Positions 4,840 through 8,228 of a stretch of DNA of 64,000 nt are shown here, in pieces. The stretch comes from Halothece sp. PCC 7418 (GTDB taxonomy: Bacteria; Cyanobacteriota; Cyanobacteriia; Cyanobacteriales; Rubidibacteraceae): the NCBI RefSeq assembly GCF_000317635.1, contig NC_019779.1, forward strand, positions 2,108,001-2,172,000, read 5' to 3'. Position 1 is the stretch's first letter. The number at the start of each line of letters is the position of its first letter. Both the position numbers and the translations under genes were made by a program. Below the pieces are notes generated by a model that did not search any database, had not been told where the DNA came from, and was given only the letters and a program-made list of their open reading frames with translations.

Positions 4840-6216
4840 TTAACGTCCCATTCCCACGTAATGAAAACCAATCTCTTGTAAGCCTTCTCGATCTAAGAAA
4901 TTACGTCCATCAATGATCACTGGTGTATTCATTAATCCTGCCATTTTTTCATAATCAAGGGATAAGAATTGTTGCCAATCCGTTACTAAAACTAACGCAT
5001 CGCAATGATCAGCAAGGCGTTCTGCGTCTGTCTCAACGATTACATTTGATAAACCATCGCGAATTCCAGACTGAGAAACAATCGGATCATAAGCCTTCAC
5101 TTTCGCCCCCAAACGGGTTAATTCGGCAATAATATTTAAGGCTGGTGCGTCCCGCATATCGTCGGTATTGGGCTTAAAAGTGAGTCCAAGTAAACCAATC
5201 ACTTTTCCCTTCAGGATTTTGAGTTCTTTTTGCAGTTTTTCCACCACTAAAAGACGTTGGCGTTTGTTAACACTAACCGCAGATTTTAAGAGTTCAGCTT
5301 CATAGTTATAATCATCCGCCGTGTGGATTAAGGCGGAAACATCTTTCGGAAAACAAGATCCGCCCCAACCAATTCCCGCTTGTAAGAACTTGTGTCCAAT
5401 GCGAGAATCTAGACCAATGCCTTTGGCAACTTGTGTCACATCCGCCCCAACGCGATCGCAGATGTTCGCCACTTCATTGACAAAACTAATCTTGGTAGCG
5501 AGGAAAGCATTTGCTGCATATTTAATCATCTCCGCAGAACTGAGATCTGTAACGACCACATCCACGGGCGAAAGAGATTGATCTTCAGCAAAATCTCGTT
5601 TCACAATCGGCTGATATAACTCCTGCATCAGTTTCAGGGCTTTATCACTATTTCCCCCCAAAACAATGCGATCTGGGTTAAACGTATCATAAACCGCAGA
5701 GCCTTCTCGTAAAAACTCGGGATTACTCACCACATCAAACTCTGCTTCTCGCGCCGACTTCAGATCGCCATTGCTTCCCAACTCTTGCAGACGTTCACTG
5801 ACTCCATCAAGAACAATCATCCGCACCCAGTCACCCGAACCAATGGGAACTGTGGATTTATTGACAATGACTTTGTAATTCCCATCCAGATGAAACCCAA
5901 TTCCTTTCGCCACTGCTTCCACATAGCGCGTATCACTTTCACCATTAGGGAGGGCTGGTGTTCCCACAGCAATAAAGAGAATTTCACCATGTTGAACCCC
6001 TTTTCCTAAATCTGTAGTGAACTCTAAGCGACCTGCTTCAGTAGAAGCCTGCATTAGTTCGGACAGTTGCGGTTCATAAATTGGCGGTTGTCCGCCTTGC
6101 ATTAATTTGACTTTTTCCGCGTTGTTATCAACACAAATCACATCATGACCTGCATAAGATAAACAAACGCCTGTCACTAAGCCAACATATCCCGTTCCAA
6201 TCACACAAACACGCAT
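4840..6216 (-). CDS. ugd: UDP-glucose 6-dehydrogenase
   Basis: Ugd oxidises UDP-glucose to UDP-glucuronate in two NAD-dependent steps. The 458-residue protein begins with the dinucleotide-binding motif GTGYVGLVTGVCL, carries the substrate-contact region NPEFLREGSA and the catalytic cysteine in GWGGSCFPKDV, and ends with the UDP-binding domain (GLTFKPNTDDMRDAPA). Length and motif order are those of the family. It lies 66 bp after the UDP-glucuronate decarboxylase gene on the same strand, which uses its product, so the two probably form an operon supplying UDP-glucuronate and UDP-xylose for cell-surface polysaccharide. Confidence 0.95.
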   Translation of the reverse strand: MRVCVIGTGYVGLVTGVCLSYAGHDVICVDNNAEKVKLMQGGQPPIYEPQLSELMQASTEAGRLEFTTDLGKGVQHGEILFIAVGTPALPNGESDTRYVEAVAKGIGFHLDGNYKVIVNKSTVPIGSGDWVRMIVLDGVSERLQELGSNGDLKSAREAEFDVVSNPEFLREGSAVYDTFNPDRIVLGGNSDKALKLMQELYQPIVKRDFAEDQSLSPVDVVVTDLSSAEMIKYAANAFLATKISFVNEVANICDRVGADVTQVAKGIGLDSRIGHKFLQAGIGWGGSCFPKDVSALIHTADDYNYEAELLKSAVSVNKRQRLLVVEKLQKELKILKGKVIGLLGLTFKPNTDDMRDAPALNIIAELTRLGAKVKAYDPIVSQSGIRDGLSNVIVETDAERLADHCDALVLVTDWQQFLSLDYEKMAGLMNTPVIIDGRNFLDREGLQEIGFHYVGMGR

Positions 6217-6281: not shown

Positions 6282-8228
6282 TTATTTCTGAGTAACAGAA
6301 TGGAAAGAATACCGATCGCGAAAATCCTCAATCAAGAATTCTAACCCAGTTTGAAGCGGAACACGCGGTTCCCAGCCTAAAATTTCTTTGGCTTTGGTAA
6401 TGTCAGGTTGGCGCTTTCTTGGATCATCTTCTGGTAAGGGTTTATACGCAATTTCGAGTTCAGGATTAATCATATTCTGAATCATCTGCGCCAATTCGAG
6501 AATCGTATATTCTCCAGGGTTTCCTAAATTCACCGGTCCAATATAATCGCCATTCATCAAGCGAATCAACCCATCCACGAGATCAGAAACATAGCAGAAA
6601 CTCCGAGTTTGCGATCCATCGCCATAAACGGTAATCGGTTCATTCCGCAAAGATTGCGCGACAAAATTACTCACCACCCGACCATCATTTTCTAACATCC
6701 GAGGTCCATAGGTGTTAAAAATGCGGGCGACGCGAATATCAACACCATTATCACGGTGATAGTCAAACGCAAGGGTTTCCGCAATACGCTTTCCTTCATC
6801 GTAGCAATTCCCACACAGAGCCACTTTCCCGTTCCGACGAACAAAAATCACATGGTTGGTAACATTCACACAATAAACATTTCCAGAATAGGGAATTTTT
6901 TCAGGAGGCGTGAGTGCTGCTTCAATGGGATTACGAATGTTAACACAGTAGAGATCGCGATTATACTTAGCATGAGAAGAGATATTAGCAGCAAAACCAC
7001 ACCTTAACGCTAATTCTTGAACATCATCTGCAAGTTGTTTCGATTTAGTGTAATAGCAGTAAGCATCTCCCCGTGGTGAACCATCTCCTAGCAATAACGC
7101 ATCAAGAAGAATACGAGACTGACGAGGAGATAAGCGGAGATATTCCCGAGGAATATATTTATCTCCTGATTTGCCAAGGGGTGACAAAATATTTGCCAAC
7201 TGTTGAGAACAAATTCGGAATTGGTGATGATCGGATTGGAAGAATTTAAAGCCCATTTTTTGCAAACATTGAGCTATTCTTTCTCGTTTTTCAGGATTTT
7301 CTTGGGCGATCAGGATATTGTAATCAGCAACATTATAATTGCGACCATTAACCACTCTCTCCCGCCGGCGAACATGAACACATCCTTCTGAAATATAATA
7401 TCCGAGAAATTCTAACCAAGTATCCATTGCAACTTGGGGAACATTGATCTTCGCGTTACGTGGGGGAGATTCTAGAGTAAACCATTCTTGTTCTTCACCA
7501 CTAAAAGTTCCACCCGTTAAGACTTTCCAAGCGTTCCAATGTCTAGATTCATCGGCTTGCAGAAATCTTAATTTTCCTGTTTTACTGCGAACATACATTT
7601 TATGATTGGGCGTAACACAGAAATCATATTTCCCATTGGCAAACCGCAAGAGATGTCCCACATAAGGCTGTACAATGTATTCATCTGGAACATGGTACTC
7701 TACCTGATTGTCAGGATTGAGAGTGGCAACAGGCACATCAGGAGATAATTCTGGAAAGGGAGTCCAACCTGTCGCTGTTAAAATTTCTGTTTCTCGATCA
7801 TAGCAGCTACGAATTCCAGTACAACTCACATTTCCGCGATATTCTTCGGGTTGGGGATGCACTTCTGGGTCGCCATACACTTCTGAGGTGGAAGCCAGCA
7901 AAAACCGCGCCTTGACTCGTTTGGCTAACCCTAACATATGTAACGTTCCCATGACGTTAGTTTTAACCGTCTTCACAGGATTAAACTGGTAATGAATCGG
8001 AGAAGCGGGACAAGCCAGGTGATAAACTTGATCCACTTCTAAACGGATGGGTTCAGTAATATCGTGACGAATCGCTTCAAAATAAGGATTATTCAGCCAA
8101 TGTTTAATATTATCTTTGCGTCCGGTGTAGAAGTTATCCAGACAAATCACTTCGTGTCCTTCCGACATTAACCGATCAATGAGATGGGAACCAATAAACC
8201 CAGCACCGCCAGTTACTAAAATTCTCAT
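6282..8228 (-). CDS. uxs: UDP-glucuronate decarboxylase (UDP-xylose synthase) precursor containing an intein
   Basis: The mature enzyme is an extended short-chain dehydrogenase that converts UDP-glucuronate to UDP-xylose. The precursor is 648 residues. Residues 1-141 carry the N-terminal Rossmann motif [10 protein letters not shown], the DNFYTGRK segment and the STSEVYGDP segment. Residues 475-648 carry CYDEGKR, which holds the catalytic Tyr and Lys of YxxxK, and the C-terminal substrate domain ([20 protein letters not shown]). Residues 142-474 are an intein. Without it the exteins join as GIRS-CYDEGKR, giving a 315-residue protein of normal family length. The enzyme should need splicing to be active. 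The gene is upstream of ugd and diverges from the TrkA-N channel-like gene. Confidence 0.93.
6807..7805 (-). mobile_element. LAGLIDADG intein inside the UDP-glucuronate decarboxylase
   Basis: The inserted 333 residues have intein blocks in order. Block A starts with Cys1 ([14 protein letters not shown]). Block B has TPNH (precursor residues 206-209). Two LAGLIDADG-type helices follow, FLGYYISEG (about 274-282) and [12 protein letters not shown] (about 374-385). Block F is [13 protein letters not shown]. The intein ends in ...ALCGN with Cys+1 as the first C-extein residue. It therefore has Gly instead of the usual penultimate His before the terminal Asn. Both acidic residues of the endonuclease helices (Glu and Asp) appear present, so the homing endonuclease may be intact. 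The insertion point is exactly one residue before the catalytic Tyr. Confidence 0.93.

Follow-up and report, generated by a model that had tools for sequence, protein, structure and literature searches.

The homing-endonuclease inteins TliVMA (7qsu), PhoVMA (7qst), PI-PkoII (2cw7), and PI-SceI (1vde) each combine a splicing domain with an inserted LAGLIDADG domain that has two motifs. The insert described here has the same architecture but is only 9 to 17% identical to these four inteins and occupies another host and another site. Inteins of archaeal carbamoyltransferases (L045-L053) and MCM helicases (L054-L065) belong to the same family as this insert, with CYD or CYS starts, GN ends wherever the locus extends that far, and 26 to 40% identity, but they differ in their hosts and sites and in having Thr or Ser at position +1. 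The archaeal hosts were assigned with a Pfam check on two of each and from the flanking motif for the others. Inteins recovered from IMG/VR by tblastn are also members of the family. Their hosts differ, being a portal protein in one checked case and, by motif, what we take to be papain-like and terminase-like proteins in others.

The window (the whole stretch of 64,000 nucleotides from Halothece sp. PCC 7418 that was analyzed) contains a gene for UDP-glucuronate decarboxylase (UXS) that is very probably interrupted by a class-1 LAGLIDADG-type homing intein, for which we infer splicing, DNA cutting, and inactivity of the precursor. A sugar-nucleotide enzyme thus joins the list of intein hosts.

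Position of the insert in the decarboxylase gene

Positions 6282 to 8228 of the window, on the minus strand, form a single open reading frame of 648 amino acids. Within it, a stop-free, in-frame segment of 333 amino acids with the C-terminal end KVALCGN is located between S141 and C142 of a 315-amino-acid UXS. The features of the region are as follows.

7806..8228, minus strand: N-extein of UXS, residues 1-141, C-terminal GIRS (open reading frame and UXS1 match)
6807..7805, minus strand: intein, 333 amino acids, at the site designated site a (translation, family alignment, and predicted model)
6282..6806, minus strand: C-extein of UXS, 174 amino acids and stop (open reading frame and UXS1 match)
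6798..6806, minus strand: start of the C-extein, C+1-Y-D, with the YxxxK Tyr codon at 6801-6803 (UXS1 alignment and comparisons)
4840..6216, minus strand: next gene on the same strand (open reading frame only)

The host halves matched human UXS1 (4gll and 2b69) with whole-protein E values of about 1e-128 (2.3e-128 for 4gll), and the alignment was split into two parts, query residues 2-144 and 475-643, which meet at CYD. The top non-UXS chain in the PDB sequence search with the host protein was UDP-glucose 4-epimerase (4zrm; E = 1.1e-40). The closest characterized proteins over both halves were UXS, and the YxxxK motif was present once the insert was removed (CYDEGK). An earlier note on this DNA had placed a 333-residue insert at 6807-7805, one residue ahead of the catalytic Tyr of YxxxK, with S-C-Y restored upon removal. 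Translation and the UXS1 alignment confirmed this to the residue, as the C-extein starts C-Y-D-E-G-K and the host flanks read GIRS|CYDEGKR in an enzyme of 315 amino acids.

No second UXS was found in the genome, where the four other matches to the N-half (E ≤ 1e-5) were only 31 to 38% identical. The adjacent open reading frame at 4840..6216 presumably encodes a UDP-glucose 6-dehydrogenase (UGDH), which would provide UDP-glucuronate for UXS. A UXS-UGDH fusion, which had been suggested by frames of about 1100 amino acids in relatives, was rejected, as those frames hold a second intein instead.

The intein and the C-extein share a CYD start (TGCTATGAT and TGCTACGAT, respectively), and thus the junction may slide by up to 3 residues when judged by sequence alone. 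Of the possible junction frames, only C1...N333|C+1 suits the chemistry of splicing. At the DNA level, the first 9 nucleotides of the intein (7797-7805) and of the C-extein (6798-6806) are near-repeats, with 0 to 3 mismatches in the 20 rows that were parsed. Slippage between them could excise the intein cleanly.

In the proposed mechanism, the precursor would fold and the acyl group of Ser141 would shift to Cys1, from which transesterification would pass it to Cys+1. Cyclization of Asn333 and formation of the S-C peptide bond would then yield GIRSCYDEGKR within the 315-amino-acid enzyme. The released 333-amino-acid intein would cleave UXS alleles that lack an intein, and repair would copy it into them (homing). 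Because the Tyr and Lys of YxxxK come directly after the intein, it is reasonable to expect that the unspliced precursor would be inactive.

Splicing and endonuclease motifs

Motifs were located in an alignment of 38 chosen family members from cyanobacteria, two metagenome-assembled genomes (MAGs) labeled as other phyla, archaea, and IMG/VR contigs.

7803..7805, minus strand: Cys1 codon, N-terminal splice nucleophile (invariant, 38/38)
7602..7613, minus strand: block B, TPNH, intein residues 65-68 (T65 and H68 invariant, 38/38)
7383..7418, minus strand: LAGLIDADG motif 1, residues 130-141, acid E140 (invariant, 38/38)
7080..7109, minus strand: LAGLIDADG motif 2, residues 233-242, acid D241 (invariant, 38/38)
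6852..6878, minus strand: presumed block F, residues 310-318, with Cys where many inteins have Asp (family alignment)
6807..6815, minus strand: block G, C331-G332-N333, Gly penultimate and Asn C-terminal (family alignment and allele ends)

The window intein aligned over its full length with nine other cyanobacterial copies at 61 to 92% identity. At a cutoff of E ≤ 0.1, the only Pfam match to the insert was LAGLIDADG_3 (E = 1.5e-11; residues 231-291); Intein_splicing (PF14890) did not match it at that cutoff but did match an intein at a second site of UXS (site b, see below). As the Pfam splicing-domain model misses the window intein, related inserts may be underannotated. A PDB sequence search with the insert gave nothing better than E = 0.017. 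An AlphaFold2 model built from the 38-sequence alignment (pLDDT, 93.4; pTM, 0.91) had the TliVMA and PhoVMA inteins, PI-PkoII, and PI-SceI as its top Foldseek matches, followed by lower matches to I-DmoI and hedgehog Hint. The matches to inteins and to hedgehog Hint are those of a Hint fold. The insert has the features of a class-1 intein: Cys1, TxxH in block B, N333 followed by C+1, and precise in-frame insertion with empty homologues. The two motifs, each with its acid (E140 and D241), and the matches to I-DmoI are those of a LAGLIDADG endonuclease.

The exception is the penultimate residue, which is Gly332 rather than the His that is common but not obligatory in class-1 inteins. The earlier claim that all splicing blocks are present therefore held for Cys1, TPNH, block F, and Asn333/Cys+1 but not for the penultimate His, while its two LAGLIDADG helices were both found. 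Gly332 was nearly invariant among the 38 members, and GN terminated 72 of 80 IMG/VR relatives. The intein ended in CGN in 19 and in CGQ in 10 of the 29 distinct UXS site-a alleles (30 table rows, including one duplicate locus, L072), all of which have Cys1. Judged from these sequences, the penultimate Gly is a family trait and no local lesion. A Chlamydomonas ClpP intein with a penultimate Gly reportedly required a Gly-to-His change in order to splice in Escherichia coli.

The noncanonical Gly might indicate that splicing has been lost and that this copy of UXS has become a pseudogene or taken on another role. Nor is there a spare UXS that would prove a need for the enzyme, the other four matches to the N-half in the genome being only 31 to 38% identical. 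However, Cys1 was kept in 29/29 distinct alleles, the frame is intact, the exteins are conserved, and this is the sole UXS gene. Furthermore, in a comparison with another strain of the genus (G121), dN/dS was 0.046 for the intein (0.031 for the splicing part and 0.061 for the endonuclease part) and 0.019 for the N-extein. These values, about 0.03 to 0.06 in both intein parts at a dS of about 1, indicate that both parts are probably maintained by selection, even though dS is near saturation. Thus, it seems extremely unlikely that the intein is dead.

Another possibility is that the intein splices only in some redox or stress state and so switches the supply of UDP-xylose posttranslationally. 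The cysteines of C331-G-N-C+1 could form a disulfide; CGN|C or CGQ|C was found in 29/29 UXS site-a alleles, the IMG/VR contig described below has CGN|C, and the insert lies at the active site. A stress-sensing intein has been reported (PMC6195587). However, Cys331 often persists in family members whose +1 residue is Ser or Thr, and thus the Cys may be structural. Such conditional splicing is considered quite unlikely. The Ter ThyX mini-intein is reported to splice well (PMC3620165). It was considered as a demonstration that an intein ending in CGN|C can splice and was set aside, as the L012 query (a ThyX intein from G118) hit only the UXS intein in one Trichodesmium-matched genome. The L012 intein was 22% identical to the window's over its full length and has the same CGN|C end.

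Other intein-domain matches were found in the genome beyond the window. There were six (L188-L193), four of them above the Pfam cutoff, and their hosts, assigned by eye, were dCTP deaminase, GyrB, ThyX, DnaX, and the split DnaE halves. The dCTP deaminase and ThyX genes, each with an intein, are close together. In dCTP deaminase, the inteins of the siblings G121 (L016) and the window's genome (L188) are, by eye, apparently at different positions.

Occurrence and probable transfer of site-a inteins

Full-length homologues of the insert were found in 10 of 386 cyanobacterial genomes searched, the window's genome included, all at the same place. With nine other genomes carrying it there, the insert is not a chance feature. 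Five further genomes had weak matches only; as far as these were read, four were to other genes that carry an intein or an insert resembling one. A scan of genome contigs yielded 47 loci, 26 in UXS at the same codon and 21 archaeal; the labels of the 26 were cyanobacterial (24), "Acidobacteria" (L024), and "Deltaproteobacteria" (L038), the last two being MAGs. The 29 distinct cellular alleles comprise these 26 loci (7 of which overlap the 386-genome set), the window, G121, and G157. Thus, 28 other cellular UXS alleles have the insert at the window's codon, 26 in cyanobacteria and 2 in MAGs labeled otherwise. A MAG titled Halothece sp. had an insert 91% identical to the window's. Within the genus, the window's genome, G121, and G326 carry the insert, whereas G054 has an uninterrupted UXS of 317 amino acids; genomes outside the genus also have UXS with no break at this codon. 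A UXS N-half match at E ≤ 1e-60 was present in at least 228 of 373 cyanobacterial genomes. Found in 10 of 386 sampled genomes, the site-a intein is rare but no one-off.

The earlier identification as an intein agrees with the motifs, the predicted structure, the empty same-genus allele, and the conserved splicing residues. The novelty that it implied is not supported, given the same insert at the same codon in the 28 other cellular alleles and one IMG/VR contig. A specially conserved DNA target was not retained as the reason for the site, as conservation in the 24 nucleotides around it was 0.788 versus 0.815 in the surroundings (44 of 56 rows; 12 rows were unparsed).

On a UXS tree of 56 rows, with L002, L072, and L082 excluded as truncated loci, occupation of site a was patchy and required 13 changes; that of site b required 7. 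The rows were picked partly by intein presence, and these counts are therefore not rates. All 29 rows of site-a UXS inteins grouped in a single clade (support, 100/99), to which the IMG/VR copy was sister (100/100). Intein and extein similarities were compared over 378 pairs from 28 alleles (L002 was excluded). The intein was the more similar part in 54 pairs, 47 of which involve L024 and/or L038. This amounts to 47 of the 53 pairs with either MAG and 7 of the 325 pairs with neither. Misbinning cannot account for the excess, because intein and extein share one reading frame. On these sequence comparisons, it points to horizontal transfer involving L024 and L038, in either direction.

These data also bear on whether the intein was fixed by descent, with one ancestral insertion, many losses, and an endonuclease that is now immobile. 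The single clade and the scarcity of pairs with the more similar intein once L024 and L038 are left out would fit such a history. Between the two strains of the genus, moreover, dS was nearly equal in the intein (0.97) and the N-extein (0.99), which, with dS near saturation, fits joint vertical descent of gene and intein and speaks against recent homing between the window and G121. However, the excess intein similarity in pairs with either MAG and the retained endonuclease acids speak against an element fixed by descent, which we regard as fairly unlikely; a homing intein remains the preferred explanation.

A possible carrier of UXS inteins is IMG/VR contig 3300032516_000001 (241,648 bases), in which an epimerase-family gene (L096:3461-6895) has inteins at both sites. 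Its site-a intein, ending in CGN|C, was 53% identical to the window's, and the joined host part was 43% identical. Of 90 loci found in IMG/VR by tblastn, 80 were kept, and L096 alone (1/80) was at the YxxxK site; the site-b intein of the contig, used as a query, found no second IMG/VR contig. Open reading frames adjoining the epimerase gene matched glycosyltransferase, methyltransferase, oxidoreductase, and DNA ligase families. Fifteen of 35 listed open reading frames of ≥200 amino acids, from four 20-kb pieces of the contig, were sampled (10 against PHROGs, 10 against Pfam, and 5 in both). Matches were Mom-like, HNH/homing-endonuclease-like, clamp-loader-like, weakly baseplate-hub-like, and SLT, and most of the others were matchless. 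The terminase 6N, Gp23, and sheath families were unmatched on the contig, and Gp23 also gave nothing in control genomes. Its designation as a virus thus rests mainly on IMG/VR, other support being weak. Plasmid records gave six matches, the best 35% identical and in an archaeal record. Named phage records gave 303 matches, each below 60% identity and the best among those listed at 26%.

A second intein site and comparison with known systems

Site b is 31 codons downstream of site a and carries an intein of 422 to 464 amino acids with only distant similarity to the one at site a. The window's UXS has site a only. Site b was filled, alongside site a, in 12 of the 26 scanned UXS loci and in G121. 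In searches with a site-b query, UXS was occupied in 7 of 373 genomes (4 with site a and 3 without), and three more genomes had weak matches of about 30% identity in frames of 1206 to 1643 amino acids. Loci with site b, with or without site a, were L002, L003, L004, L010, L020, L022, L025-L027, L036, L037, L039-L043, L178, L180, and L181. All 10 CGQ alleles of site a occur in genes bearing the second intein.

Co-occurrence of the two sites gave a Fisher test P value of 6e-5 (4 double, 6 site a only, 3 site b only, and 215 neither, the last being the remainder of at least 228 genomes with a UXS N-half match, not individually read). An association beyond shared ancestry was not retained, as independent pairs on the tree gave a median P of 1 and were too few to reach 0.05.

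In the nine site-b copies from Okeania, Hydrocoleum, and Trichodesmium, the acid was absent from motif 1 in 8/8 and from motif 2 in 7/7 pattern-matched copies. At site a, the motif-1 Glu was retained in 30/30 rows and the motif-2 Asp in 28/30; the remaining two rows (L040 and L041) have the Asp too, beside an altered Gly. With acids lost at site b and kept at site a, a conserved and a decayed endonuclease are combined in one gene. For such a pair at the MCM-a and MCM-d sites, co-homing has been raised in one study, which reports no support for it in its own case (PMC10643990).

One small gene has two conserved intein sites that lie 93 bp from each other and are each filled separately. As alleles with no intein, with one, and with both occur in one genus, homing, neighbor interference, and horizontal transfer are testable. 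In a broader reading, UXS would be a two-site intein hot spot whose inteins move among cyanobacteria, other phyla, and large phages, and redox-dependent splicing at CGN|C would license UDP-xylose synthesis posttranslationally. If this were true, a parasite of the active site would license UDP-xylose synthesis, but we consider it very unlikely.

Site a may already have been catalogued for Trichodesmium. InBase listed two inteins of a Trichodesmium erythraeum nucleotide-sugar epimerase, "Ter Ndse-1" and "Ter Ndse-2." These may occupy the same two UXS sites, both of which are filled in a T. erythraeum contig (L042). The Trichodesmium site-a copies (L039-L042) terminate in Gln, whereas the window copy terminates in Asn. 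In the open literature, mostly without subscription papers, no report was found on an intein in UDP-glucuronate (UDP-glucuronic acid) decarboxylase or Ndse, and the accessible parts of sources retrieved for inteins and NAD-dependent epimerases held nothing on a UXS intein.

The Haloferax MCM-a and MCM-d inteins likewise occupy two neighboring sites in one gene. They differ from the UXS inteins in their gene and domain of life and in that homing was measured there, whereas for UXS it is proposed from sequence (PMC10643990).
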